This document shows, piece by piece, positions 9,849 through 24,119 of a DNA stretch of 33,121 bases. The stretch lies in the NCBI GenBank assembly GCA_030613245.1, contig JAUWMI010000048.1, positions 1 to 33,121 of the forward strand, written 5' to 3'. The position numbers and the translations under genes are program-made. Below the pieces are notes generated by a model. The model saw nothing but the letters and a program-made list of their open reading frames with translations, was not told the origin of the DNA and did not search any database. Each line of letters starts with the position of its first letter. Within the stretch, counting starts at the first letter, position 1. Source of the DNA: Candidatus Sumerlaeota bacterium (lineage in GTDB: Bacteria; Sumerlaeota; Sumerlaeia; MWCT01; JAUWMI01).

Positions 9849-10472
9849 TCATGGATTAGCCACGACTGTGACGTATTTCTTGGGAAGCGTGAGATGTTTG
9901 GGAAAGTAGACCCGGGCCTCAGATCCCACTTCGGTCTTGTGCGGGTTTAAAACGTAGAGATCGCCACTGAATTCAAATTTGCCATGCTTGTTGGGCTGCT
10001 CAAGCAGGGAATGCTTTGGGCAGCGTACATCGAAAAGTCCTGGCGCATTCGTACTGTGGACAAGGATATACTCGTTGCCCGAAGGACAGCGGGGAATTGC
10101 GGCCAGCAGGTGATCGGGCCGGTTGAGCGGGGGAATTTTCATCAATTCGAGTTTCGGCTTAAGATAGAGAAATCCTTCCTTGCCTTCCGTAAACGCGCCG
10201 TTCCCATAATGGAAGTAGAACACAAGACTGCGCAATATGTTCTGCGAACCTTCGCGCTCCAAATCGAAGCGGAACTTGTATTCATCGCGCATCATTTGCA
10301 TCCCCTCTTCGATCAAGACCATGTTCTGGACGCATGTTCGAGCGTCGAGGCGTCGGAATGACGTGACCGCGTTTATCACGAGCATGCCAATGATAAACAG
10401 AATGACGATTGCAAAGATGATAATGGTGTTGCGCGTCTCAAGTTTCTCCTTCTTTTTCCGCTGTTTCTTCAT
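9849..10472 (-). CDS. Membrane-anchored protein of unknown function
   Basis: A 207-residue protein with a strongly basic start (residues 2-14), one membrane segment (~16-37) and an outside domain. The domain shows CVQNMVLIEEGMQMM just after the anchor, then IPRCPSGNEYILV and VRCPKH. The pattern Cys-x2-N...IEEG, followed by CPSG-x-EY and C-x-KH, recalls pilin-like or pseudopilin-like soluble domains that lack a standard prepilin cleavage motif. That is a resemblance, not an assignment. Start is preceded by AGGGGGATTG. A promoter-like element lies upstream. It points towards the uvrA transcription unit and is not obviously part of the Hdr gene run. Confidence 0.65.
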   Translation of the reverse strand: MKKQRKKKEKLETRNTIIIFAIVILFIIGMLVINAVTSFRRLDARTCVQNMVLIEEGMQMMRDEYKFRFDLEREGSQNILRSLVFYFHYGNGAFTEGKEGFLYLKPKLELMKIPPLNRPDHLLAAIPRCPSGNEYILVHSTNAPGLFDVRCPKHSLLEQPNKHGKFEFSGDLYVLNPHKTEVGSEARVYFPKHLTLPKKYVTVVANP

Positions 10473-10656: not shown

Positions 10657-11736
10657 CTATGCATTCGGAGAAGCTGGCCGGATTGCTGCGCTGGGAGGAT
10701 GATTGGCGGCGCGGAGAATTGTGTCAACGAGTGTATCCAGTTTAATCCGATAAATCGAAGCATCCAGTCCATAGTGCCGTATGGTGCGTCTGAGCATGGA
10801 TGCGTCAAGCGGTGACCATCTCAGTACTGATTCCAGACGGCAGAGATCCCGGGTGCGGGAAAAGTAGTTACCTGTAATCAGGATGTTCTCGATGGTTCCA
10901 CCCGTTACGCTCACGTGGACTTGCAATATCCCGCCGGGAGTCATGCACTCGGCGTGGTAGTGACGCTTTCGTGGGAGCCTGGTTGCGAAGATCCAGGAAT
11001 CTTGTGTGTACTTATCATCCATTAAGCGGCGCACGAGTGTCTGTTCGTGGCTGGTGAGAGGCGTTTGTTCAACTGGTACTCGAAAGTGCTGCTCAAATGC
11101 ACTCACGACTGCCTGTTGTAGTTCCCCCATGTTCAGAGCAACCCCTTCCTGACGCAGCGTGGTAATACGTTCACTAAAGCAGCTAATTCCTCTGTCGGGC
11201 AGGTTCTGCGTTGGAAGATTCAGGACGTCGAGCATCAAGGAAAGGTCAAGGTCAAGAAGCAGACTGGCGTGGAAGAAGGCCGCATGATCCTCATCTTGCG
11301 AAATTGCTAGTCCGGCAATCTTTTTGCCATTGATTTGCAGGTCGTTCTTGCCGACAAACTCTGCGTTAAGACCAAGAGGGCGCAGGGCATCTGCCAGAAT
11401 TTTGCCGAAAAGATGAAAGAGACCTCGAATGGTGGTCGGCAGCTTTGCCTGCCAATCTGGAATGGCGAAGGCGATGGCAAGCTGGCACGGCGTCATAAGC
11501 ACCGTGCCACCGCCGGAATGGCGACGGTTGAATTCCACGCCCCGCACTTCACAGTTTGCAATTCTCACAGCCGACTGCAGGTTTTGATAGCGCCCGACAA
11601 TGACAGCGGAGCGATACGTATAGAGATGAAGCGCGGCTAAGGAACCAAGGGTATGCGCTGCCGCAACAAGGCCTTCATCCACGGCAAGCCCGTAAGCAGC
11701 AGAGACGTTTTCATGAGTAATGAGTCGCCACGACAC
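10657..11736 (-). CDS. lplA: Lipoate-protein ligase A
   Basis: Activates free lipoate with ATP and attaches it to a lysine of a lipoyl carrier protein in the cytosol. The catalytic domain has RRHSGGGTV (~71-79), the lipoate-binding glycine loop, and INGKKIAGLA with the active-site Lys. The C-terminal accessory domain (~250-345: FATRLPRKR, GGILQVHVSVTGGTIE, ITGNYFS) is present, so a separate LplB is not needed. Length 359 is normal. The start is GTG at 11736, overlapping the TAG of glcF by one base, which indicates translational coupling. As the last gene of the hdr-flx-gcvH-glc run, its natural client should be the GcvH-like protein encoded three genes earlier. Confidence 0.88.
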   Translation of the reverse strand: MSWRLITHENVSAAYGLAVDEGLVAAAHTLGSLAALHLYTYRSAVIVGRYQNLQSAVRIANCEVRGVEFNRRHSGGGTVLMTPCQLAIAFAIPDWQAKLPTTIRGLFHLFGKILADALRPLGLNAEFVGKNDLQINGKKIAGLAISQDEDHAAFFHASLLLDLDLSLMLDVLNLPTQNLPDRGISCFSERITTLRQEGVALNMGELQQAVVSAFEQHFRVPVEQTPLTSHEQTLVRRLMDDKYTQDSWIFATRLPRKRHYHAECMTPGGILQVHVSVTGGTIENILITGNYFSRTRDLCRLESVLRWSPLDASMLRRTIRHYGLDASIYRIKLDTLVDTILRAANHPPSAAIRPASPNA

Positions 11737-12851
11737 TATTTGACTCCAGCCAGACGATGTACCAGGGCTATCACATCGTGAATCTCAGGAGCGCCTTCGA
11801 CCAACCGGCTCCCTTCTTTGAGATTAACCAGGCACGTGGGACATGCGACGGCGATCATGTCAACTCCCATGACTTTTGCTTCTGCAATGCGCTCTGCAGC
11901 GATGCGTTTGGCGAGGTCTGGATGGCTTGGCATCAACGGGCCCCCGCAGCACCTCCCGTTCTCGCGATTGGCCGGAAAGTCAACGATAGTAGCACCAGGA
12001 ATTGCTTGAAGCACTTCTCGCGGCTCTTCGTAGACGTTGCTGTGGCGACCAATGTCGCAGCCATCGAAGTAGACGATTTTCTTAGGCAGAGATTTGGCGA
12101 GCACCAATTTTTTCTCTTTCAACAGTGAGGCGAACAGCTGAGTAACGTGCAGCACTCTGAATGTATCTCCGTAGTGTTTCTTGAACGCTTTCAGACACCC
12201 TGCGCAGGAGGTAAAGATGGTCTCTACGCCCAGGCGCTTATAGTCGGCGATGTTCTGCTCGACGAGTTCGCGGCCCAGCGTCTGTTCGCCCATGCGGAAG
12301 TAGGGGTCAGCGCAGCATCGCTCCTGGCTGCCCATGCTGGTAAAATCAAAGTCAATTGCCTGGAGCAGGCGAATCAGGGCCTTGCCCGTGCGGCTTGTAG
12401 CGTAGGAGACGGCGCAGCCAGCGTGATAGAGATTAGGCGATAGCCGGGGCGTTTGCAACGCCGCAGGAAGCCAGGAGCCGCGTTCTTCTCGCGGCTCGCC
12501 AAATGGATTCATGTGGACAACAACGTTTGCTTTGACACGAGCCTGTGCCCCGGGTAAGGGCTTACCAGCATTCACCATTCCCGCGCGTGCTGCCGTAATC
12601 AGCTCGTCAACCTCAATCCCGCACGGACACGTAGTCACACATGCATTGCAGTTCAGACAGTTGTAGATTTTATCCTGGAAGCGATCCGTAAGTTCGAGCT
12701 GCCTATCTATCACTGCCTTGATCAGGCGAATCTTACCACGTGCCACCTGGCTTTCATCCTGAGTGATGAGAAAGACCGGGCACGTTTCGCGACAGTTGCC
12801 ACACTTCATGCAGCGGATGACTTCTTCGACCTGTGACTCCATAAACTCCAT
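11736..12851 (-). CDS. glcF: Fe-S subunit of 2-hydroxyacid dehydrogenase (GlcF-like)
   Basis: A 371-residue electron-transfer partner of the FAD-linked oxidase encoded just upstream. The N-terminus has two [4Fe-4S] sites, CMKCGNCRETCP (~14-25) and CLNCNACVTTCP (~65-76). Two CCG-type domains follow: CAVSY, RCCAD and SCAGC in the first, then DGCDIGR, GRCCGGPLMPSH and CPTC in the second. This is the GlcF/LutA/HdrD-like layout. It takes electrons from GlcD and hands them to a quinone, a disulfide or another Fe-S protein. GGAG lies 8 bases before the ATG. It overlaps lplA by one base. In this operon a disulfide acceptor (lipoyl) is conceivable, but that is inference. Confidence 0.87.
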   Translation of the reverse strand: MEFMESQVEEVIRCMKCGNCRETCPVFLITQDESQVARGKIRLIKAVIDRQLELTDRFQDKIYNCLNCNACVTTCPCGIEVDELITAARAGMVNAGKPLPGAQARVKANVVVHMNPFGEPREERGSWLPAALQTPRLSPNLYHAGCAVSYATSRTGKALIRLLQAIDFDFTSMGSQERCCADPYFRMGEQTLGRELVEQNIADYKRLGVETIFTSCAGCLKAFKKHYGDTFRVLHVTQLFASLLKEKKLVLAKSLPKKIVYFDGCDIGRHSNVYEEPREVLQAIPGATIVDFPANRENGRCCGGPLMPSHPDLAKRIAAERIAEAKVMGVDMIAVACPTCLVNLKEGSRLVEGAPEIHDVIALVHRLAGVK

Positions 12852-12936: not shown

Positions 12937-14331
12937 TCACGCAATTGCAGTGTCAGCAACAAATATCTTGCCCGGGTTGAGAATGTTATTCGGGTCCAGG
13001 GCTGTTTTGATTGCGCGCATGACAGCCAAGCCTTCGGGGCCAAACTCATTTTCCAGATATTTTGCTTTCGCGCTGCCAATGCCATGTTCGCCCGTGAGAG
13101 TGCCACCGAGACTCAGGGCCAGTGCAAAAATTTCGTCAATGGCTTTCTGTACGCGTTGCTTCTCTTCGGTATTGCGTAGATCCGTGAGAATCGTCGGATG
13201 CAGATTACCATCACCTGCATGCCCGAAATTTCCGATCTGAATTCCATATTTATTGGCAATATCAGTTACGCCGCGTACCATTTCCGGAATTTTGCTCCTC
13301 GGCACGGTGGCGTCTTCGAGAATTGTGTTAGGTCGAACCCGTGCCAGAGCGGAGAAACACGTACGTCGGGCCTCCCAGATTTGTAATTTTTCCTGCTCGG
13401 TTGCAGCGCTTTTGACGTCGCGCGCCTGGTTTGCCTTGCACACGGCAATGATTTTCTCTGCTTCATGCTGAGCTGCAGCTTTGACACCGTCTGTCTCCAG
13501 GAGCAGGATCGCCTGGGCATCACGCGGAAGACCGATTTTTTTGAAATCCTCAATTGCATTAATGGAAGTGTTATCCATAAATTCCAGCGTGGCAGGGATC
13601 ACGCCGCTCTTGATGATATCAGCTACAGTTTTAGCGGCCATGTTCATATCGTCAAAAATCGCCATCATTGATTCTTTATGCTCCGGCGCTGGTACCAGCT
13701 TAACTGTGATCTCAGTGATGATGCCGAGGGTACCTTCAGACCCTACGTAGAGATGAGTCAGGTCATAACCGGAAACGCTTTTCACGCATTTCGAGCCAAC
13801 GCGAACCACCTGGCCAGCTGGTGTTACTACCTGGAGCGCGAGCACGTAGTCCTTCGTAACGCCGTATTTGAGGCCTCGCAAGCCGCCTGCGTTTTCCGCC
13901 ACGTTGCCGCCCATTGTGGTAACCTTCATACTGGCGGGATCCGGTGGGTACAATAGTCCAAGTGCCTCGACCTGCTCGTGGAGGGCGGAAGTAATGACCC
14001 CAGTCTCGACAATTGCGTAGAGGTCTTCCTGATTAATCTCCCGAATGCGATTCAGCCGTGTAAGAACCATGACAAGGCCACCTTTGAGAGGAACCGAGCC
14101 GCCACTCAGGCCCGTGCCAGCACCACGCGGATATACAGGAAAGCCTTCTGTATTTGCCAGCGTCATCAGGCGGGCAATTTCCTCCACTGAGCCTGGCATG
14201 GCCACCCACTCTGGCATGGCTTCTTCAATGGCAGCGTCATAGGAATAGCATAAGCGATCCTCGTATGAATCGAAGAAGTAGTCCTGGCCGACAATGGCCT
14301 TGATCTGGTCGCCAAGTTTAGTCTTTTGCAT
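12937..14331 (-). CDS. glcD: FAD-linked 2-hydroxyacid dehydrogenase (GlcD-like)
   Basis: Oxidises glycolate, D-lactate or a similar 2-hydroxyacid with FAD. About 464 residues from the chosen start. The FAD-binding PCMH loop is RGAGTGLSGGSVPLKGG (~60-76), followed by NVAENAGGLRGLKYG and GSEGTLGIITE. The C-terminal half has GNFGHAGDGNLHPTIL (metal/substrate His pair) and LTGEHGIGSAKAKYL. The frame is open to 14454, but those extra 41 residues overlap gcvH and are unlike the family; the ATG at 14331 overlaps the gcvH stop by 14 bases and has GGGAAAG before it. Tight coupling to gcvH suggests shared expression. The exact substrate cannot be read from sequence. Confidence 0.9.
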   Translation of the reverse strand: MQKTKLGDQIKAIVGQDYFFDSYEDRLCYSYDAAIEEAMPEWVAMPGSVEEIARLMTLANTEGFPVYPRGAGTGLSGGSVPLKGGLVMVLTRLNRIREINQEDLYAIVETGVITSALHEQVEALGLLYPPDPASMKVTTMGGNVAENAGGLRGLKYGVTKDYVLALQVVTPAGQVVRVGSKCVKSVSGYDLTHLYVGSEGTLGIITEITVKLVPAPEHKESMMAIFDDMNMAAKTVADIIKSGVIPATLEFMDNTSINAIEDFKKIGLPRDAQAILLLETDGVKAAAQHEAEKIIAVCKANQARDVKSAATEQEKLQIWEARRTCFSALARVRPNTILEDATVPRSKIPEMVRGVTDIANKYGIQIGNFGHAGDGNLHPTILTDLRNTEEKQRVQKAIDEIFALALSLGGTLTGEHGIGSAKAKYLENEFGPEGLAVMRAIKTALDPNNILNPGKIFVADTAIA

Positions 14332-14776
14332 AGTCTTTCCCTTCGGTCTTTTCTTTCTCAACGCGGACAATTTCTGCTTCGAGCCACGCCACAGCTGCGT
14401 CACCTTTGCAAAGGCCTTTGAGTTCTTCATCCAGTTTTGTAGGTTTAATAGCAAGGATCCATCCTTTGCCGTACGGATCTTCGTTTACCAGCGTGGCTTG
14501 GTTTTCAAGCTCGAGGTTGACTTCCGTAATTTCGCCAGAGACCGGTGCGATCAGTTTACCGATCCACTTACTTGACTGCATTTTGCCACAGGTCTCGTTC
14601 TGAACCGCCTCATCGCCCTCAAAAGGAAGGTCAATGTAGGTGATATCACCGGCCTGGGCCTGGGCAAAGTCGTTAAGCCCTACACGCACACAATCTGGAC
14701 TTTCAACGCGTGCCCAGCAGTGTTCTTTATGATAGTAGAGATCATCGGGCATATCGTAATCCTGCACCTTTGCCAT
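14318..14776 (-). CDS. GcvH-like lipoyl carrier protein
   Basis: A 152-residue lipoyl-domain protein, longer than usual glycine-cleavage H protein (~125-130). The lipoylation region is CGKMQSSKWIGKLIAPVSG, where K70 aligns with the lipoyl Lys of GcvH; the normal GcvH context is ESVKAAS. NEDPYGKGWI (~98-107) is conserved. The C-terminus has an extra charged tail (~135-152). No gcvT, gcvP or lpd is in the window; the neighbours are flxA upstream, glcD overlapping downstream, and lplA. This argues for a role other than glycine cleavage, as for the lipoate-binding protein of sulfur-oxidising sHdr systems. AAGGAGAG lies 7 bases before the start. A true H protein cannot be excluded. Confidence 0.82.
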   Translation of the reverse strand: MAKVQDYDMPDDLYYHKEHCWARVESPDCVRVGLNDFAQAQAGDITYIDLPFEGDEAVQNETCGKMQSSKWIGKLIAPVSGEITEVNLELENQATLVNEDPYGKGWILAIKPTKLDEELKGLCKGDAAVAWLEAEIVRVEKEKTEGKDYAKD

Positions 14777-14891: not shown

Positions 14892-15812
14892 TTAATATTC
14901 CTGCGGCATGCCTAGAATCTGCCTGTAGCTGAAAACAGGGCCGTCAATACAGACGTAATACGGCCCAATGTTACACCGTCCGCACTTTCCAATACCGCAT
15001 TTCATGCGCATCTCAAGGGTTGTGATGATCTGGTCGGGTGTGAAGCCCAGCTTGGTCAGGCCCTGAAGTACGAATTTAATCATTATCGGCGGCCCACACG
15101 TTAGGGCAATGGCATTTGCAGATTTCGGCGCCACCTCCTCCAAGAGCTGCGGCACAAACCCTTCTTTACCCGTGTATGTTTCGTCGGCCTTGTCAACGGT
15201 TTCGTGATATGTGACGTCCTGGCGTTGGGCCCACTGCTTGAGATCGCGCTTAAACAGAAAGTCGCCGGGAGAGCGCGCACCGTAAATGATAGTGATGTCC
15301 TTATAGCGGCTGCGATGCTGCGCATCGAGCATGTAGATGATCAGCGAACGAAGTGGAGCTAGCCCAATACCGCCAGCAACGAAGATAATATTTTTGCCCT
15401 CCATTGTCTCCAATGGAAAAGTATTGCCGTACGGGCCGCGCACACCGATCGTGTCGCCTACCGACAAATTGTGAATTGCCCGTGTAACAACTCCCATGCG
15501 CTTGATGCAAAATTCAGGATGTGGCTGTGTGGGGGAGGAGGTGATTGAGATTGGTGCTTCGCCTGCACCCGCAACAGAAAGTTCGGCAAATTGACCCGGG
15601 AGATACTGGAACTGCTCACGCGCCGCATCATCGAGAAACTCCAGTGTAAACGTGCGAGTATCTCTGACTGCTGATTCGACTTCGATGGCGATGATGCGCG
15701 CGAGAGATGGCTTGTATTGACTCTGATTCTTCTGACTGTGCGGTTTTACTTTTTTCATTTCCGATGACTCACAGAAATCTACAGGATCGAAAACAAAAAC
15801 TATTCTGATCAC
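14892..15812 (-). CDS. flxA: FlxA-type NAD(P)H/FAD oxidoreductase subunit
   Basis: The NADH-reactive flavoprotein of an Flx module, in the ferredoxin-reductase fold shared with PyrK, NfnA and sulfhydrogenase gamma. The FAD part has YLPGQFAEL and APISITSSP; the NAD part has VAGGIGLAPLRSLI and ALTCGPPIMIKFV. The end has a [2Fe-2S] site, MKCGIGKCGRCNIGPYYVC (CX4CX2CX8C). The full frame begins at GTG 15812, overlapping the flxB stop as GTGA; an ATG at 15758 is an alternative start that drops 18 residues not needed for the fold. It passes electrons between NAD(P)H and the FlxB/FlxC Fe-S proteins. Assignment to Flx rests on the flanking flxB, flxC, flxD and hdrABC. Confidence 0.87.
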   Translation of the reverse strand: MIRIVFVFDPVDFCESSEMKKVKPHSQKNQSQYKPSLARIIAIEVESAVRDTRTFTLEFLDDAAREQFQYLPGQFAELSVAGAGEAPISITSSPTQPHPEFCIKRMGVVTRAIHNLSVGDTIGVRGPYGNTFPLETMEGKNIIFVAGGIGLAPLRSLIIYMLDAQHRSRYKDITIIYGARSPGDFLFKRDLKQWAQRQDVTYHETVDKADETYTGKEGFVPQLLEEVAPKSANAIALTCGPPIMIKFVLQGLTKLGFTPDQIITTLEMRMKCGIGKCGRCNIGPYYVCIDGPVFSYRQILGMPQEY

Positions 15813-16852
15813 GGTGATGCAGGATGAGTAGAGCTTGCCAGAGTGCTGAGAATTTCGCGAATATCAAGATTCACGGGGCATGCCACTACACAACGGCCGC
15901 ATCCCACGCAGGCAATTAGACTTTTGTTTTCCGGGAAATAGGAGAATTTGTGCATGATACGCTGACGCAGACGTTGCGCATGTTTAGTGCGCGGATTATG
16001 ACCTGACGCATGCAGTGTAAACTTAGGAAACATGCAGCAATCCCAGCTGCGCAGGCGACGGCCAATCTTGCCTGCTACATCATCAGTAATATCAAAACAG
16101 TGACACGTTGGGCAGAGAAACGCACATGCGCCGCAGCTGAGGCATTTCGCCGCCATCTCTTCCCACAACTCCGATTCAAAACATTGCTTAAGAAAATTCT
16201 GCACTTCAGCAAGCTTGAGTGATTGCGACTTCCGTCGCGCGGCCACCTGCTGCTTCTTTTTCTGAATCAGTTCTTGCGGTGCGTCAGCAAGTGTCTTGAT
16301 GAGTGTTTTTCCCTTTGTGGTCAAGACGTCTATAATGTACGAATCTTCTACTTCGGTCAGGAAGAGATCACATCCAGTGCCATCCGTACTATTGATATCA
16401 AATGTTTCGCAGAAGCAAGTATCATCCGGTTCAAGACATGCCATGCCGATTAGTCGCATTCTCCGGCGTTTTTCGACGTAGTAGCTGTCGCTAAATTGTT
16501 CGTCATCGAACACAGCATCCAGAATCGTTAGCGCTCGCACGTCGCAAGGCCGTACAGGGAATATGATCGGCTCTCGTTTGGCTGACGGTGCGTCGCTAAG
16601 GCTGGCCGCTCCCGGCTCGAAAAAGAAAAGTGTCTCGTCCTGCGGTAAAAAGAACTCCTTGATACTATTGCGTGGCAGGCGGTACTTCAGGCAACATTCT
16701 GTGCCCCGCGTAATCTTCTGGTAGCGGCTGAATCCGTTCTGCTCAACTGGCGCAATGACATCGTACTGCTTAAGCAGAGCGTCGAGAAATTGCTCAAGAT
16801 TTTTCTTGGGCAGAAGTTTTGACGTTAAGTGCTTTGTTGAATCTTTGGCCAT
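15809..16852 (-). CDS. flxB: FlxB-type 4Fe-4S dicluster protein
   Basis: A 347-residue iron-sulfur protein of the group that also contains AsrA and sulfhydrogenase beta subunits. The first two thirds form a domain with PVRPCDVRALTILD and TCFCETF. Then come two [4Fe-4S] motifs: CLSCGACAFLCPTC (~235-250) and CVGCGRCVVACPVN near the C-terminus. It carries electrons between FlxA and the rest of the complex. Its stop overlaps the GTG of flxA, and it starts 17 bases after flxC. AsrA-type sulfite reduction is not supported because no asrC-like sirohaem subunit is present. Confidence 0.83.
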   Translation of the reverse strand: MAKDSTKHLTSKLLPKKNLEQFLDALLKQYDVIAPVEQNGFSRYQKITRGTECCLKYRLPRNSIKEFFLPQDETLFFFEPGAASLSDAPSAKREPIIFPVRPCDVRALTILDAVFDDEQFSDSYYVEKRRRMRLIGMACLEPDDTCFCETFDINSTDGTGCDLFLTEVEDSYIIDVLTTKGKTLIKTLADAPQELIQKKKQQVAARRKSQSLKLAEVQNFLKQCFESELWEEMAAKCLSCGACAFLCPTCHCFDITDDVAGKIGRRLRSWDCCMFPKFTLHASGHNPRTKHAQRLRQRIMHKFSYFPENKSLIACVGCGRCVVACPVNLDIREILSTLASSTHPASP

Positions 16853-16869: not shown

Positions 16870-17751
16870 TTACAAAAACGTGCTGTTGTCATCGTCGGTA
16901 CTGAACGTATGGAGCGCAGGCGGCCGTTCCAGATCAATGCCGGGCTTGTCTTGAAATAGCTCAGCGACGTCACGACTGACTTTCTGCGTCAGTAGCCGTA
17001 GTTTGATACCCATGGGACATGCGCGTTCGCAGGCGCCGCATTCGCCGCAGCGGCCGGCTGAGTGGAGCGCACGCACCAGATGATAGATCATAATGTCGCT
17101 TGGATGCGTGCCTTCGCTGATCCATTTTGGCTGCGTTTGATCCACAAAACATTCTTCGCAATAACACAATGGGCAGGCATTACGACATGCGTAACAGCGG
17201 ATGCAGCGACTGAACTCCTGTTCGAGTGCCTTCCATCGCTCGGCTGGAGATAATGCTTCAAATGCAGCGAGCTCGGCGTCCAGTTCAGAGGGTTTCTTTG
17301 GCTTTATCTCATCCGGCGAGCCAATCAGAATATCGTAGAGCGGCGGGACATTCACCTCGCAGTGTTGACACGAGGCGTATGGTATAGGAGGTTCGCCAGT
17401 CGCGCGTGTGTCGAGTATGCCATCGCATACAATACCGATGATGTGTAGGCGATCCCTGCTGATCTGTTTTTCCTTTATTAATCCCACGAGGCTTCGCGCA
17501 TCGCAACCTTTCACGACAATACCGATTTTGCTGCTTGATTGCATTCTCTGCAAATAGCTCACCAAATTTAATTGGCAGTGATTGTTCCATACAAGCATGT
17601 TCGCATCCTGAGGTTTACGAATAAAGACTGGAGTGACGCGGTTCGGCAGCGTTCCCCGGCCATAGCCGATAATGAGGTCTACGACATTCTCAGCCAGCAG
17701 TTGCTGAGCGCGCTCTCTAAGCTCGTGCTCTATCTGGTTTTCTAACTCCAT
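16870..17751 (-). CDS. flxC: FlxC-type Fe-S protein
   Basis: A 293-residue iron-sulfur protein. The N-terminal part resembles the FrhB/HycB-associated fold, with VVKGCDARSLVGLIKE (~100-115). A central Cys-rich segment CIRCYACRNACPLCYCEEC (~184-202) and a later CGECGACERACPMG (~238-251) supply at least two [4Fe-4S] clusters. GGAGATC precedes the ATG by 11 bases, and the gap to flxD is 15 bases. It belongs with FlxB in linking the NADH-reactive subunit to the FlxD/HdrA end. The FlxB and FlxC labels follow gene order and could be swapped relative to other published operons. Confidence 0.8.
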   Translation of the reverse strand: MELENQIEHELRERAQQLLAENVVDLIIGYGRGTLPNRVTPVFIRKPQDANMLVWNNHCQLNLVSYLQRMQSSSKIGIVVKGCDARSLVGLIKEKQISRDRLHIIGIVCDGILDTRATGEPPIPYASCQHCEVNVPPLYDILIGSPDEIKPKKPSELDAELAAFEALSPAERWKALEQEFSRCIRCYACRNACPLCYCEECFVDQTQPKWISEGTHPSDIMIYHLVRALHSAGRCGECGACERACPMGIKLRLLTQKVSRDVAELFQDKPGIDLERPPALHTFSTDDDNSTFL

Positions 17752-17766
17752 GCGTTTGCTGATCTC

Positions 17767-18240
17767 CTACATATGTGCTGCCTGGATGAGTTCAGGGGGC
17801 AAAGAGAATGTCTTGACCAAACGTTTCGCCGGCCCCAGGGCCTTGATCTTCTCAACGGCGTCAGCCACAACACGGGAAAACTTTTCTCCTTCTGCTGCAC
17901 TGACCCAAGAAAATTGCACGCGGTTTTCTTCCAATCCCACGTAGTCGAGCAGGCGCTTCAGCACGATAAATTTTCGCCGCGCATAGTAATTCCCAGTCAG
18001 GTAATGGCAGTCTCCTGGATGACAGCCGGAAACCAGCACACCATCGGCGCCGTGTTGCAGGGACTTCAGAATGAACAATGGATCAACGCGACCCGAACAC
18101 GGAACGCGGATGACGCGGATGTTTGGCGGATACTGAAACCGGCTGATGCCGGCGAGGTCTGCACCAGCATAGCTACACCAGTTGCATAGAAAAGCGATCA
18201 ATCTTGGTTCAAATTCTGCGCCAGGCTGCATCATCGTCAA
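17767..18240 (-). CDS. flxD: MvhD-like [2Fe-2S] adaptor (FlxD)
   Basis: A 157-residue member of the MvhD family, the adaptor that docks an electron-donating module onto HdrA in Mvh-Hdr, Fdh-Hdr, MetVF-Hdr and Flx-Hdr complexes. The Cys ligands are in place: C19 and C22 in FLCNWCSYAGAD, C48 in VPCSGRVD, C73 and C78 in SGCHPGDCHY. The start lies among three closely spaced Met (residues 1, 3 and 4). It follows hdrA after 45 bases and precedes flxC by 15 bases. Its position between hdrA and the Flx genes matches its expected physical place in the complex. Confidence 0.9.
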   Translation of the reverse strand: MTMMQPGAEFEPRLIAFLCNWCSYAGADLAGISRFQYPPNIRVIRVPCSGRVDPLFILKSLQHGADGVLVSGCHPGDCHYLTGNYYARRKFIVLKRLLDYVGLEENRVQFSWVSAAEGEKFSRVVADAVEKIKALGPAKRLVKTFSLPPELIQAAHM

Positions 18241-18285: not shown

Positions 18286-21200
18286 TTATCGAAATGCGAG
18301 GAGCTGCGCAACAATCTCCTCGTTCGTAAAGCCGGAAATATTTGGTGCACCGCAACGACAGCTCGTGGCGCACACGCCGCATCCCTTGCAAAGAGTGGCA
18401 TTCACCACCGCCACGTGCTTTTCTTCGTCAATCTCAATTGCTTTGTACGGGCACATCTCCACGCAGAGGCCACAGGCCTTACACCGGTGTTCATCAATAT
18501 GTGAGACGATGGGTTCTGTTTCGATAAACTTCTTCGACAGAACCACGACTGCGCGTGCCGCGGCAGCCTCGGCCTGTGAAATTGCCTCGTCAATCAATTT
18601 AGGTGCATGTGCCATCCCGCAGAGAAAGATTCCGTCCGTGGCAAAATCAACTGGTCGTAGCTTCATGTGCGCTTCCATGTAGAAGCCGTCGCTATCCAAC
18701 GGCACTTTCAACAGCTGCGCCACCACCTTGTTTTCATCGTGCGGCACCGTGGCCATGCTGAGCACGAGTAAGTCAGCAGGGATGGCAATAGTTTCGTGTA
18801 AAATGAGATCATCAGTTATAACAAAAAGCTCATTGTCTTTGTGCTCAACGCGCGGTGGATTCTCGGGCGTGTAGCGAATGAAGAGAACGCCTGCTTCGCG
18901 CGCCTGTGTGTAGTACTGCTCAAGAAAGCCAAAGGTGCGCATATCACGATAGAGAATAAAAACATTTGCTGCGGGATTCCTGGCCTTTATGGCAAGCGCA
19001 TTCTTGATCGCCTCGGCACAGCAAACACGGCTGCAGTAAGGTCGCTCGTCGGTCCGCGATCCCACGCATTGAATCATTACTACGTTCTCCGCCGCTGGTG
19101 TTGTATCGTTCTCGAGCATCTGTTCAAGCTGGCGCTGCGTAATGATGCGTGAGTCGGTTCCATAGTCGTATTCTGCTGGCTTCTTCTCTGCGGCGCCGGT
19201 GGCAACGATCACCACGCCGTGCTGATATTTCGTCTCATTTCCATTGTGTTCAATAGTAGACTCAAAATTGCCGATGAAGCCCTCAACCGCTTTAACAGAG
19301 GCTGAGGTGAATACAGAAATTTTCTCATGGCCTCTGATCTCATCAATAAGATCCCTGAGGTAGACCTGAATGTCGGTGCCAGCGAGTGTGCGATACATGT
19401 GGCGAAGGTTTCCGCCGAGCTCGGGTTGCTGTTCGACCAGAGCCACCTGGTAACCCTGGTTAGCCAGGGTTCGAGCTGCAGTCATACCTGCCAGGCCGCC
19501 GCCGATTACAAGCGCTGAATACGTAACACTGGTTTTTTGGCGCTCCAGCGGCTCCAGGTAGCGCGCCTTCTCAATAGCCATACGCACGAGATCCTTTGCC
19601 TTTTCCGTTGCTTCGCGCGGCAGTTCCATGTGCACCCAGGAGCACTGATCGCGGATGTTTGCCATCTCGAAAAGATAAGGGTTCAGGCCCGCTTCGCGAA
19701 TAGTTTGCTGAAACAACGGCTCGTGCGTTCGCGGTGAGCAGGAGGCAACCACCACGCGGTTGATGCCGTGCTCCTTGATCTTTTCAGTGATCAGTTCCTG
19801 GGTATCCTGTGCGCACGTATAGATATTGCGCTCGGCATAGACGACAAAGGTAAGCGTCTTTGTATATTCAAGAACATCTTCGACGTCAACGACACCAGCA
19901 ATGTTGATACCACAGTGGCAGATGAACACGCCAACGCGCGGAGGTTCACCACGCACATCGCGTTCAGGCGGAAATGTCTTTTCGCTGACCAGCGTGCCGC
20001 GGGCAGGGCAGAGGAGCTCGGATGCCTTAGCCGCTGCAGCACTTGCCTGCATCACGGTTTCCGGGATGTCCTTGGGCCCCTGGAAAGCGCCCGCAACATA
20101 CACGCCGGGTCGGGCAGTCAGCATCGGTGCGAATTCAGGAGATGCATTGAAGCCGTACGTGTTTAGCTGAAGGCCAAATGCATCCGCTAATTTCTTTGCA
20201 TCCTGCGGCGGATCGAGCCCGACTGACAGCACAACAAGATCGAAGCGTTCGCTTTTGAGCGTTCCATCTTCGTCTTCGTAATGAAGCAGCAAATCCTTTG
20301 TTGAGGGATCTTCTGTCACGTGCGACACTCGGGCGCGCACATACTGCACGCCATACGTTGCCTGTGCACGTTCGTAGTACTGGTCAAAGCCCTTCCCATG
20401 GGCACGCATGTCCATCATGAAAATGGTTGTGGAGAGACCCTTCAGGTGTTCCTGGGCGATGACGGCCTCTTTGGTAGCGTACATGCAGCAGACGGACGAG
20501 CAGTATTCACGGCCGTGCGCGCAGTCGCGCGAACCAACGCATTGCAGAAACGCAACAGAGCGGGGCGGCTTGCCGTCAGAGAGCCGCTGTATGTGACCAG
20601 TAAATGGACCTGTGGCGCCCATCATTCGCTCAAACTCAATACTGGTCAGCACATTCGCGTAGCGGCGATAGCCGTATTCTTCCAGGCCACTGGGGTCAAA
20701 TTCATCATAACCAGGAGCAAGAATGACCGAGCCGACATTGAGCCGAATCTCCTCTTCCTGCATGTCCAAGTCAATGGCTTTGGGCTCGCATACTTTCAGG
20801 CATTCATAGCATTCGGAGCATATACCACATTTCAGGCACCGACCGGCTTCAGCAACGGCTTCTTCTTCTGTATAGCCAAGCTCGACTTCGTCGAAGGATG
20901 TGCGGCGGACATGAGGGTCAAGCGAGGCCATAGGAGTGCGCGGTTGAGGCTCTGGCAGTGTCTCCAGCTCGTACTGGACTTTCTCGAGGTGAGGCCGTGG
21001 AGTTATTGGCTCGTCCTGGAGAAATTGGTGAATGGCGAGTGCCGCACGCTTGCCAGTATCAATTGCCTCAATCACCGTGGCTGGCCCAAGGACTACGTCG
21101 CCACCGGCAAACACACCCTCTTCGGATGTGCGATAGCAATCATCAACTTCAAGTGTTCCCCACCGGGTTCTTTTGAAATCATCGGGGAGGAATCTGAGAT

Positions 21201-22701
21201 CAGCTTCCTGGCTAATCGCCGGAATGATAGTGTCAACCTCAATGGTGAATTCGGATTTTTCAATAGGAATGGGACGACGACGGCCACTTGCATCCGGCTC
21301 GCCGAGTTTCATGCGGATGCACTGCATGGCAGAGAGCTTTCCATTCTGCCCGATGATTTTCGTTGGTGCAGCGAGATAGTGAATGGTGATGCCTTCCTCT
21401 TCTGCAGCATCAACTTCGCTGGCATTTGCGGGCATTTCCGTACGGGAACGGCGATAGATGATAGAGACCTCCTCGGCTCCGAGCCGGAGTGTGGAGCGTG
21501 CTGCATCAATGGCAGCATTGCCGCCACCAATTACCGCCACGCGTTGTCCAATGGCTGGCTGTTTCCCAAGATTCATCTCACGCAGGAAATCTACAGCGTG
21601 GAAGATTCCCTGCAAATCTTCGCCTTCAATGCCTAGTTTTTTGCTGATCTGCGCACCGATTGACACAAATACAGCATCGTATCTTTTGCGTAATTCTTCA
21701 AATGGGATGTTTGTCCCTACCGGCGTATCGAGATTGATCTCAACGCCAAGCGCCTTAATCTCATTGATTTCCATTTCCAGAACGTCGGCGGGTAAACGGC
21801 AGTCAGGGATGCCAATCGCCAGCATACCGCCCGGGCGCGAGAGGCTCTCGTAGATAGTGGCATCGTAGCCCAGGAGTGCGAGATCATTTGCGCAGGCTAG
21901 GCCACCGGGACCCGAGCCAATTATTGCAACGTGCTTGTCTTGCTTGCTACGGTTTTCGTTTGCAGGTGGTTTGCGCAAGCCATGCTTGGTCACGTAGTCT
22001 ACAACAAACCGTTTGAGCGCAGCTACGGCTACAGGCTGATCGATTTCATTTCGCTGGCAGTTTTGTTCGCAGGGGTGATGGCATACGCGGCCGCAAATGC
22101 CCGGTAGCGGATTCACGCTCCGGATAAGCGCGTACGCCTCTTCAAACTTTCGTTCGCGAATAAGAGCCACATAGCCCTGGGCTGAGGTTTCTATGGGGCA
22201 GGCGGATTTGCACGGAGCTACACCCCGCTTCTCAATGGCAAAGGCGTTTGGAATGGCCTGGGCAAAGAGTTTGTAGATCGCTTTTCGTGTGCCCAGGTTC
22301 TCATCGTATTGATTGGGCCGCTCGATGGGACATACCTTTACGCATTCATCACACGCCGTACATTTTTCAATGTCCACATAGCGAGGATGCTTTTTAACAC
22401 TAACGGTAAAATTTCCGGCCTCTCCTTCGACGCGCTCCACTTCAGCGTAGGTGATTATCTCAATGTTGTGATGGCGTCCAGCATCAACCAGCTTCGGCGC
22501 AAGGATACACATGGCGCAGTCGTTGGTCGGAAAGGTCTTGTCTAGCTGGGCCATGACTCCGCCAATGCTCAGGTTTTTCTCCACAAGATAGACCTTGTAG
22601 CCTGATTCTGCGAGGTCAAGGGCCGACTGAACGCCGGCCACCCCTCCACCAACTACCATGACGGCGCCAATAACTTTTTTCTGTGTTGTTTGAGATTTCA
22701 T
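18286..22701 (-). CDS. hdrA: Giant HdrA-GltD-HdrA fusion flavoprotein
   Basis: A 1471-residue fusion. Residues ~10-150 are the start of an HdrA (FAD loop GGGVAG 18-23, CTACDECVKVCP ~114-125). Residues ~155-565 are an inserted GltD/NfnB-like module: N-terminal Fe-S Cys (164-215), FAD loop GSGPGG 262-267, NADP-type loop GGGNAA 392-397 and FAGGD 531-535. HdrA resumes at ~620 with CLKCGICSECYECLKVC and QCVGSRD...SSVCC (~720-739). A second, complete HdrA follows: VGVFICHCGINIAG ~923-936, CSPRTHEP ~988, FAD loop GGGLAG 1067-1072, QCVGSR ~1211, and two ferredoxin sites CKACGLCVEMCP (1407-1418) and CKGCGVCATSC (1438-1448). HdrA holds the bifurcating FAD. Typical HdrA is about 650 residues. Confidence 0.92.
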   Translation of the reverse strand: MKSQTTQKKVIGAVMVVGGGVAGVQSALDLAESGYKVYLVEKNLSIGGVMAQLDKTFPTNDCAMCILAPKLVDAGRHHNIEIITYAEVERVEGEAGNFTVSVKKHPRYVDIEKCTACDECVKVCPIERPNQYDENLGTRKAIYKLFAQAIPNAFAIEKRGVAPCKSACPIETSAQGYVALIRERKFEEAYALIRSVNPLPGICGRVCHHPCEQNCQRNEIDQPVAVAALKRFVVDYVTKHGLRKPPANENRSKQDKHVAIIGSGPGGLACANDLALLGYDATIYESLSRPGGMLAIGIPDCRLPADVLEMEINEIKALGVEINLDTPVGTNIPFEELRKRYDAVFVSIGAQISKKLGIEGEDLQGIFHAVDFLREMNLGKQPAIGQRVAVIGGGNAAIDAARSTLRLGAEEVSIIYRRSRTEMPANASEVDAAEEEGITIHYLAAPTKIIGQNGKLSAMQCIRMKLGEPDASGRRRPIPIEKSEFTIEVDTIIPAISQEADLRFLPDDFKRTRWGTLEVDDCYRTSEEGVFAGGDVVLGPATVIEAIDTGKRAALAIHQFLQDEPITPRPHLEKVQYELETLPEPQPRTPMASLDPHVRRTSFDEVELGYTEEEAVAEAGRCLKCGICSECYECLKVCEPKAIDLDMQEEEIRLNVGSVILAPGYDEFDPSGLEEYGYRRYANVLTSIEFERMMGATGPFTGHIQRLSDGKPPRSVAFLQCVGSRDCAHGREYCSSVCCMYATKEAVIAQEHLKGLSTTIFMMDMRAHGKGFDQYYERAQATYGVQYVRARVSHVTEDPSTKDLLLHYEDEDGTLKSERFDLVVLSVGLDPPQDAKKLADAFGLQLNTYGFNASPEFAPMLTARPGVYVAGAFQGPKDIPETVMQASAAAAKASELLCPARGTLVSEKTFPPERDVRGEPPRVGVFICHCGINIAGVVDVEDVLEYTKTLTFVVYAERNIYTCAQDTQELITEKIKEHGINRVVVASCSPRTHEPLFQQTIREAGLNPYLFEMANIRDQCSWVHMELPREATEKAKDLVRMAIEKARYLEPLERQKTSVTYSALVIGGGLAGMTAARTLANQGYQVALVEQQPELGGNLRHMYRTLAGTDIQVYLRDLIDEIRGHEKISVFTSASVKAVEGFIGNFESTIEHNGNETKYQHGVVIVATGAAEKKPAEYDYGTDSRIITQRQLEQMLENDTTPAAENVVMIQCVGSRTDERPYCSRVCCAEAIKNALAIKARNPAANVFILYRDMRTFGFLEQYYTQAREAGVLFIRYTPENPPRVEHKDNELFVITDDLILHETIAIPADLLVLSMATVPHDENKVVAQLLKVPLDSDGFYMEAHMKLRPVDFATDGIFLCGMAHAPKLIDEAISQAEAAAARAVVVLSKKFIETEPIVSHIDEHRCKACGLCVEMCPYKAIEIDEEKHVAVVNATLCKGCGVCATSCRCGAPNISGFTNEEIVAQLLAFR

Positions 22702-22732: not shown

Positions 22733-23611
22733 TCACACTCCGAGTTTTTCCAACACAGCGGTTGGTCGCACCCGATTCTGATTGAACCCGAGCTCCTTTG
22801 GCTCAATACCTAACGCCAGGCCCAGTATCTGCGGGTAGTAGAGTACGGGCAGATGGTATTCGGTCTGAAAGGTGCTTTCGATCTTGCGCTGATTGCTTTC
22901 GTACATAATGCTGCAGAAGGGGCAGATTAAGACAATCGCGTCCACCCGATTGGCTATTAAGTTGTCGAGTTTTTTCTTTGAAATCTTCAGAGCCAACCCT
23001 TCATCTATTGCTAGCAATGCTCCACCACAACAGCTCAGCTTCTCCTCATAGCTTATACTTTCTGCGCCAGTGAGGGTAATAAGCTGATCCAGGGTCTGCG
23101 GGTTCTCGTCGCTGTCAAATCCGCTGTATATGGCTGTAGGCTTGAGATAATGGCAGCCGTAATGAGGGGCAAAGCGCAGAGCATTGAGAGGGCGGGTGAT
23201 CTTTTCCTGGAGCGCCTTGAAGCCCACTTCCTCGATCAACAGGCGCACAAAGTGCTTTACCTCGACCGTGCCACGGTATTCCATACCGAGTTCGCGCAAT
23301 TTCTGATTGACCTCATCACGCTGCGTCGCAGAGTCGCGCAGCACAAGGTTGGTTTCTGTAAGCATTCCCGTGCACGCAGTGCATATGGTGCAAAGATTTG
23401 CGTTATTTTGTTCAGCAAGCGCAAGATTGCGTGCGGCCATAAGAAGAGAGGTTTTGTGATGCACTGAATCAATCGGGAACCCGCAGCAGGTAAAGTTGTC
23501 GATATCAAGAAGCGGGATGTTCAGGACCGCAGCGATTTTGCGTGTCGCAAGCTCGTAGTTCTGCGCTCGAACGGGAATCGTACAGCCAAGAAAAAGGGCG
23601 TATGGATTCAT
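22733..23611 (-). CDS. hdrB: Heterodisulfide reductase subunit B
   Basis: The subunit carrying the noncubane [4Fe-4S] pair that cleaves a disulfide. Both CCG motifs are complete: C10, C42-C43, C77 and C80; then C153, C194-C195, C230 and C233. This fits CX31-38CCX33-34CX2C twice, so the active sites should be functional. The C-terminus (~240-292) has YYPQILGLALGI, typical for the family. Length 292 is normal. It begins 4 bases after hdrC and ends 31 bases before hdrA. Since this is a bacterium without visible CoM/CoB metabolism, the substrate disulfide must differ from the methanogen one; DsrC is the proposed partner in sulfate reducers but is not in the window. Confidence 0.92.
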   Translation of the reverse strand: MNPYALFLGCTIPVRAQNYELATRKIAAVLNIPLLDIDNFTCCGFPIDSVHHKTSLLMAARNLALAEQNNANLCTICTACTGMLTETNLVLRDSATQRDEVNQKLRELGMEYRGTVEVKHFVRLLIEEVGFKALQEKITRPLNALRFAPHYGCHYLKPTAIYSGFDSDENPQTLDQLITLTGAESISYEEKLSCCGGALLAIDEGLALKISKKKLDNLIANRVDAIVLICPFCSIMYESNQRKIESTFQTEYHLPVLYYPQILGLALGIEPKELGFNQNRVRPTAVLEKLGV

Positions 23612-23615
23612 GAAT

Positions 23616-24119
23616 TTAATCCTTTGGCTCCCTTTTTGTTAGGCCTGTCAATTCAAAGATGCGTACCATATCAGGGTTTTGTTTTTCGAGAGGCGGCAGC
23701 CCGAGGCGGCCGCGCTTCTTATTGTCGAAGTCCTCGATCTCGTAAATTTTGCCGTGTTTGCGAATAGTCTCTACCTGAGTCTGGTAGGCGGGATGAATGA
23801 TTCCTTCACTAACGGCAATATTTTTCAGCACCCGCATGATGGTTGTCAGATGCACGTCCTGGGGACAGCGCTCAGTGCATGTATAGCAGCTGGCACAGAG
23901 CCATACGAAATCCGAGCGCAACACTTCGTCTTTCATCCCAAGAAGCACCATGCGGATGATACGGCGCGGGTTGTAGCGTTCGTCAATCTCGCGCACCGGA
24001 CACGCAGCTGAGCAGGCGCCACAGGCAAAGCATCGGAGGATGTTTTCTCCGCCAGGTGTGGAGAGAACCAGATTCTTAAATGCCAGATTCTTCTTATCGA
24101 GGTAGATAATGCTGCTCAC
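23616..24119 (-). CDS. hdrC: Heterodisulfide reductase subunit C
   Basis: A 167-residue ferredoxin-like subunit that relays electrons from HdrA to HdrB. Two [4Fe-4S] motifs are seen: CFACGACSAACP (~30-41) and CASCYTCTERCP (~76-87), followed by IMRVLKNIAV. The hydrophobic segment between them is not long enough for a membrane anchor. It is the first gene of the minus-strand run; the start ATG directly abuts a long AT-rich intergenic region that should hold the operon promoter. No strong ribosome site is obvious before the ATG (AAGGGTTCATAACGTG lies upstream). Confidence 0.92.
   Translation of the reverse strand: MSSIIYLDKKNLAFKNLVLSTPGGENILRCFACGACSAACPVREIDERYNPRRIIRMVLLGMKDEVLRSDFVWLCASCYTCTERCPQDVHLTTIMRVLKNIAVSEGIIHPAYQTQVETIRKHGKIYEIEDFDNKKRGRLGLPPLEKQNPDMVRIFELTGLTKREPKD

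Follow-up and report, generated by a model that had tools for sequence, protein, structure and literature searches.

The stretch of DNA analysed here, which we call the window, comprises 33,121 nucleotides of a Candidatus Sumerlaeota genome (contig JAUWMI010000048.1 of assembly GCA_030613245.1). It carries a same-strand run of genes encoding HdrC, HdrB, HdrA, MvhD, FlxC-, FlxB- and FlxA-like proteins, a GcvH-like protein to which we give the name GcvHx, GlcD, a GlcF/HdrD-like protein and LplA, with intergenic gaps of -14 to 115 nt. The features are as follows.

23616-24119, minus strand: HdrC-like protein with two CxxCxxCxxxC [4Fe-4S] motifs (motif scan; HdrC 59-71% identical in related clusters)
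22733-23611, minus strand: HdrB-like protein with two complete CCG (non-cubane cluster) signatures (motif scan, related clusters)
18286-22701, minus strand: HdrA with an NfnB/GltD-like insertion, 1471 aa (NCBIfam HdrA2, 1038 bits, cut-off 1100; GltD/NfnB families at residues about 155-564)
17767-18240, minus strand: MvhD/FlpD, FlxD-like (Pfam FlpD, 185.6 bits)
16870-17751, minus strand: FlxC-like 4Fe-4S dicluster protein (profile matches, related clusters)
15809-16852, minus strand: FlxB-like protein, HydB/AsrA-like, Fer4_22 (profile matches)
14892-15812, minus strand: FlxA-like FAD/NAD(P) oxidoreductase, HydG/AsrB-like (profile matches)
14318-14776, minus strand: GcvHx, GcvH-like putative lipoyl carrier, 152 aa (Pfam GCV_H, family alignment, structure model and fold match)
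14555-14578, minus strand: lipoyl motif QSSKWIGK, residues 67-74, with K70 at 14567-14569 (alignment of 40 family members, 21 housekeeping GcvHs and 4 LbpA-type proteins)
14321-14383, minus strand: charged C-terminal extension, residues 132-152, at the end of the predicted helix 126-144 (sequence and model)
12937-14331, minus strand: GlcD-type FAD-linked 2-hydroxyacid dehydrogenase (Pfam FAD_binding_4 and FAD-oxidase_C; TIGR00387, 544 bits, cut-off 567.9)
11736-12851, minus strand: GlcF/HdrD-like protein with two [4Fe-4S] motifs and two complete CCG signatures (two Pfam CCG matches, motif scan)
10657-11736, minus strand: LplA lipoate-protein ligase with C-terminal accessory domain, RRHSGGG and KIAG intact (Pfam LplA-B_cat and Lip_prot_lig_C; motifs)

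The run thus holds a complete HdrABC-Flx set: HdrA, an HdrB bearing both CCG signatures, an HdrC bearing both 4Fe-4S motifs, MvhD and the three FlxA/B/C-like proteins. In both HdrB and GlcF the motif scan found two complete C-X-CC-X-CXXC signatures, the type that holds disulfide-cleaving non-cubane clusters. HdrA (18286-22701, minus strand) is split after about residue 155 by a flavoprotein domain of roughly 400 residues resembling NfnB/GltD, and the same fusion occurs in archaeal relatives; as expected of a fusion, it narrowly missed the HdrA2 equivalog cut-off (1038 of 1100 bits). The glcD start codon (ATG at 14331) lies inside the 3' end of gcvHx, with a 14 nt overlap. The original prediction that a dedicated ligase shares the run and that gcvT and gcvP are absent nearby is borne out: lplA is the third gene downstream of gcvHx, with its RRxSGGG motif and lysine intact, and neither gcv gene occurs in the cluster. 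Downstream of lplA by 184 nt, at 9849-10472 on the minus strand, an ORF of 207 aa, whose N-terminus resembles a membrane anchor, matches nothing in Pfam or NCBIfam. Promoter matches were no better than chance, and the stretch from FlxA to GcvHx showed no terminator on the minus strand.

The gcvHx reading frame runs on the minus strand from an ATG at 14776 to a stop at 14318. Its product scores 117 bits against Pfam GCV_H and 126.6 against NCBIfam PRK01202 (cut-off 117); with 113.9 bits it falls slightly below the cut-off of TIGR00527 gcvH (115.85). An AlphaFold2 model built from 11 family sequences (pLDDT 91, pTM 0.85) has its closest fold matches among H-proteins (Thermus 1onl, TM 0.95 on target) and ends in helix 126-144 followed by a low-confidence stretch. 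GcvHx therefore has both the fold and the lipoyl lysine of an H-protein: K70, in the context M-Q-S-S-K70-W-I-G-K, occupies the alignment column of the lipoyl lysine of solved H-proteins. Judging from this sequence context, the protein probably carries a lipoyl arm on K70. The final 21 residues hold 12 charged side chains, in line with the predicted extra charged residues, about 20 in number, at the C-terminus. Such a tail is not specific, because LbpA proteins and, in shorter form, archaeal members also have one; tails in LbpA are equally long and their length varies among family members, so we dropped the tail as a family marker. Cysteines C20, C29 and C123 are not conserved in the family alignment, and C63 is kept in only part of the family.

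The altered lipoyl motif that drew attention to GcvHx is real and family-wide. Sought across Hdr-linked members, K-W-x-[GA] following the lipoyl lysine was found in 40 of 40 aligned family rows and in none of the 21 housekeeping GcvHs, which mostly have K-[AST]-x-[AS]; it is partly common to the LbpA-type proteins (four rows, ES[GA]K[WY]xG). The features of GcvHx are not chance, since the protein is 59-66% identical to four relatives and the motif is shared by the whole family. The KWxG family extends through several bacterial lineages and two archaeal phyla. Monophyly of all 40 rows received a p-AU of 0.03 against it, so that several lipoyl-carrier groups may have inherited KWxG from a common ancestor and the motif need not mark one clade.

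The genome itself (4.29 Mb, 96% complete) contains exactly one other gcvH, located within a gcvT-gcvH-gcvPA/PB cluster, as well as LipA adjoining a second LplA/LipM-like gene. GcvHx is thus neither the sole or main gcvH of the genome nor linked to gcvT or gcvP. In two trees that included LbpA, all housekeeping GcvHs, that of the same genome among them, fell on one side of a branch (support 99/96 and 98/95, with bootstrap values of 98-99%) that excluded GcvHx. Its clade of 21 rows (99/96 and 98/94) unites relatives from its own class, from other bacterial families and from Thermoplasmatota, and LbpA together with sHdr-linked LbpA forms a separate group (100/99, with a yardstick of six sequences). 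The original prediction had named close grouping with housekeeping GcvH and the lack of any other gcvH as grounds for giving it up, and the opposite was found on both counts. A housekeeping identity was rejected on the own-genome search and both trees. We regard it as nearly certain that GcvHx belongs to a dedicated, Hdr-linked family of H-protein-like proteins, distinct from housekeeping GcvH.

Other GcvH-like proteins were encountered alongside this family. A member of the same class (G019) encodes a fusion of a GcvH-like domain, without the lipoyl lysine, to the receiver domain of a response regulator (L046:533-1297), beside a histidine-kinase-like protein; the H-protein fold has possibly been reused here in signalling. 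Four loci (L132, L133, L134 and L135) encode tandem or single large GcvH-like proteins of 210-646 aa with other residues in the usual lipoyl-lysine column, several of them with hydrophobic or cysteine-rich N-terminal parts. A second archaeal family with the motif ESAKFVSR sits beside an LplA-like ligase and forms its own clade (L005:12451-12897, L062, L106:12025-12462, L112:11285-11932); its member in L005 adjoins a 4-hydroxybutyryl-CoA-dehydratase-like gene. Plasmid p1 of Acidithiobacillus ferrooxidans carries an LbpA-type protein (L131:13989-14435) with N- and C-terminal cysteines and the motif ESGKWAG. Its surroundings resemble a nitrosative-stress locus (hemerythrin, hcp, NnrS), include an Fe-S protein related to Hdr and are not an sHdr operon. 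In the plasmid search, the best matches to GcvHx were mainly ordinary gcvH, and LipS1 had no match.

Genes surrounding the KWxG family encode HdrABC, MvhD, Flx, a dedicated LplA, GlcD and an HdrD-like GlcF, and sometimes LipS1/S2 or LipT. Of the 21 clade members, 16 have Hdr/Flx genes within 8 kb, compared with one of the 16 housekeeping controls (Fisher p=3e-5, shared ancestry ignored). The set of GcvHx, LplA, GlcD, GlcF and HdrCBA recurs in G002, a genome of the same taxonomic order as the window that has the complete cluster, as well as in a bacterium unrelated to it, G777, and in the archaea G232 and G418; G003 and G004, of that taxonomic order too, carry the parts covered by their short contigs. 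Among bacteria we found HdrA-GcvHx-GlcD-GlcF-LplA (G006, same class), GcvHx-LarA-GlcD-GlcF-LplA-HdrC-HdrB-HdrA (G777), HdrA-MvhD-HdrC-HdrB followed by GcvHx-LplA-LipS2-LipS1 (G776), GcvHx-LplA-LipS2-LipS1 (G499) and HdrC-HdrB-GcvHx (G559). Among Thermoplasmatota, GcvHx adjoins GlcD-GlcF-LplA-HdrC-HdrB-HdrA in G418, and G259 has LplA-HdrC-HdrB-HdrA-GcvHx. In G232 a single run encodes hydrogenase subunits, MvhD, GlcD, GlcF, HdrC, HdrB, HdrA/NfnB, a fused Flx, a second HydD/HydA pair, OsmC, GcvHx, LplA-DUF116, LipT, LipS1 and LipS2.

GlcD-GlcF accompanies gcvHx in G002, G004, G006, G777, G418 and three Thermoplasmatota MAGs, and all 18 of the HdrB and GlcF-type partners checked have two full CCG sites. 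Seven loci have a LarA lactate-racemase homologue within about 5 kb of gcvHx. The link of GlcDF with Hdr is not universal, because several archaeal members have a hydrogenase nearby in place of GlcD/GlcF and others have no Hdr nearby (L033, L034, L098, L103). At nine archaeal loci (L096, L097, L099, L100, L101, L105, L107, L109, L110) an OsmC-family peroxiredoxin gene adjoins GcvHx or lies near it. Peroxiredoxins of the OsmC type can use dihydrolipoyl proteins as reductant, and perhaps this one does so too. Adjoining lipoyl-carrier genes, LplA is fused to a C-terminal DUF116 in L033:2149-3813, L034:8755-10353, L042:6713-8263 and L100:10519-12081 (by Pfam match in L033 and L042, by similarity in L034 and L100), and in L042 and L100 the fusion also adjoins LipS1 and LipS2.

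The gene association between GcvHx and Hdr is strong. Protein family, motif, gene order, a separate housekeeping system, cross-lineage conservation and intact active-site signatures form the computed basis from which we infer the chemistry, that is, the lipoylation of K70, the contacts between partners, the electron flow, its direction and the substrate. With a probability of about 0.55, we propose that a tethered lipoyl disulfide/dithiol shuttles between a 2-hydroxyacid (probably lactate) dehydrogenase, GlcDF, and a bifurcating or confurcating HdrABC-Flx, GcvHx being the dedicated lipoyl carrier of that complex and not a glycine-cleavage H-protein. The LplA of the operon would place lipoate on Lys70, or octanoate that the genome's LipA would later convert, and the arm would then alternate between disulfide and dithiol. 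A 2-hydroxyacid, in all probability D-lactate or something closely akin to it, would exchange its electrons with the arm by way of GlcD, with FAD, and GlcF, HdrD-like with CCG clusters of the disulfide-reductase type. On the other side the arm would exchange electrons with HdrB, whose cluster signatures match those of GlcF, and HdrB would be linked through HdrC, HdrA with its NfnB insert, MvhD and FlxABC to NAD(P) and ferredoxin. What CoM-S-S-CoB does in methanogens, or DsrC in sulfate reducers, would here be done by a lipoyl group held on a protein. H2 would be the electron partner in those archaea that carry a hydrogenase.

The seven loci with LarA near gcvHx point to 2-hydroxyacids such as lactate as the substrate of GlcD. 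The single LarA of the window's own genome is unlinked to the operon and its context is uninformative, and the genome has no lactate permease, which counts against lactate. Energetics also argue against the shuttle: the E0' of lipoamide, near -0.29 V (a value cited in PMC6067878), lies below that of lactate/pyruvate. The direction is therefore thermodynamically awkward: unless the flow is reversed, ferredoxin would have to drive lactate oxidation through the lipoyl arm by confurcation. DsrC was rejected as the Hdr partner since the genome lacks its gene, which removes the partner postulated for the Desulfovibrio Flx-Hdr (PMC5296606).

Among alternatives to the shuttle between GlcDF and HdrABC-Flx, the least improbable, though we think it unlikely, confines GcvHx to HdrABC-Flx as its lipoyl disulfide partner. 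NAD(P)H, H2 or ferredoxin would reduce the arm, which would hand its electrons to some further acceptor such as a peroxidase or a step of biosynthesis, with GlcD and GlcF co-regulated but separate. Many archaeal members indeed pair their Hdr/Flx genes with hydrogenase and OsmC and not with GlcD/GlcF; yet in the window GlcD-GlcF directly adjoins gcvHx with the 14-nt overlap, the pair recurs with gcvHx in the genomes listed above, and GlcF itself bears CCG sites of the disulfide type. The presence of lplA in the run would also suit a lipoyl relay or store, in which LplA loads GcvHx and another enzyme hands the lipoyl group to 2-oxoacid dehydrogenases. GcvH of Bacillus subtilis serves as such a relay. 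Here, however, housekeeping lipoylation has its own LipA, second LplA/LipM-like gene and GcvH, and GcvHx is linked to Hdr/Flx/GlcDF rather than to 2-oxoacid dehydrogenases, which makes this role quite improbable.

Hardly more probable is an LbpA-like sulfur carrier, whose dihydrolipoyl arm would bind sulfane sulfur for oxidation to sulfite by an Hdr-like complex, as proposed for sHdr. The KWxG motif, the dedicated ligase and the Hdr linkage are all shared with LbpA (PMC6067878), but GcvHx lacks the pair of N- and C-terminal cysteines, its clade is separate from LbpA proteins, genuine sHdr-linked ones included, its partners form a full HdrABC-Flx with intact CCG sites instead of sHdrC1B1A-HypC2B2, and the operon as annotated by Pfam and NCBIfam has no sulfurtransferase-like gene. 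That GcvHx is merely a divergent glycine-cleavage H-protein fits its fold and its Pfam/NCBIfam scores in the GcvH range and is very improbable in view of the separate gcvTHP cluster, the absence of gcv genes near gcvHx, the motif change common to the whole family and the position in the trees.

The gene partnership in bacteria and archaea suggests lipoic acid as a missing disulfide substrate of the heterodisulfide reductase family. For the disulfide of those HdrABC complexes that belong neither to methanogens nor to sulfate reducers, the operon offers a candidate and also the ligase that would make it. Our more general proposal, which we advance tentatively and as slightly less than an even bet, is that KWxG lipoyl carriers are the physiological HdrABC disulfide in bacteria and archaea that have neither CoM/CoB nor DsrC, and that they couple 2-hydroxyacid (lactate) dehydrogenases or hydrogenases to flavin-based bifurcation. 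If true, lipoic acid gains a redox-carrier role apart from 2-oxoacid and glycine metabolism and from sulfur oxidation. The operon also indicates 2-hydroxyacids as the class of electron donor, relatives having a lactate racemase close by, and it yields a short signature, KWxG following the lipoyl lysine, for locating the same system elsewhere. A lipoyl-GcvH disulfide for Hdr has already been proposed for Culexarchaeia (PMC9723716). Within the literature searched, which covered few subscription papers, the KWxG family, its cross-domain spread and the GlcD/GlcF/LarA link look new, and no paper was found linking GcvH and a ligase to HdrABC-Flx with GlcD/GlcF.

The job proposed for the operon, lactate-type oxidation coupled to NAD reduction by means of a GlcD-type flavoprotein, resembles that of LctBCD/EtfAB of acetogens. 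In that electron-confurcating lactate dehydrogenase, which also has a GlcD-type flavoprotein, reduced ferredoxin helps lactate oxidation to reduce NAD. A homologue is discussed in PMC4759654. The acetogen enzyme uses EtfAB, whereas HdrABC-Flx and a lipoyl carrier would act here. FlxABCD-HdrABC of Desulfovibrio vulgaris (NADH dehydrogenase/heterodisulfide reductase; Ramos et al. 2015, as cited in PMC5296606 and PMC4759654) shares the HdrA, HdrB, HdrC, MvhD and Flx components and differs in its postulated disulfide, DsrC instead of a lipoyl protein, and in the NfnB-like insertion of HdrA found here. For the Ehe hydrogenase/HdrA2B2C2 cluster of Culexarchaeia, where a gcvH gene lies beside Hdr genes, Kohtz et al. 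2022 (PMC9723716) suggested that the lipoyl group of GcvH supplies HdrB with its disulfide. We liken the two by published gene context; that cluster has a membrane hydrogenase, SdhA and CdhA with no ligase named, whereas ours has a soluble Flx module, GlcD/GlcF and LplA and occurs also in Bacteria.

The nearest experimentally studied relative of GcvHx is LbpA of sHdr sulfur oxidation (PMC6067878, PMC10332631), which has a conserved cysteine near each terminus (PMC6067878). Both are single lipoyl domains of the GcvH type with K-W/Y-x-G at the lipoyl lysine. Their genes accompany those of Hdr-like proteins and of a dedicated ligase, joined in some relatives by LipS1/LipS2/LipT. The cysteine pair, in contrast, is missing from GcvHx when compared with the sHdr-linked LbpA of G672/G531, and neither B-type subunit of the sHdr cluster L172 (a yardstick which, like L175, was taken as genuine from gene order and domains) has a full CCG signature, against two in each of the 18 partners checked in our family. 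Membership of GcvHx in LbpA was rejected on cysteines, clade and partner type, the KWxG likeness being real. The comparison with LbpA of sHdr for which the original prediction called stands for Hdr linkage, ligase and motif and fails for membership: LbpA is another clade that works with sHdr, and the family of GcvHx is distinct and goes with complete HdrABC/Flx, GlcD/GlcF and LplA.
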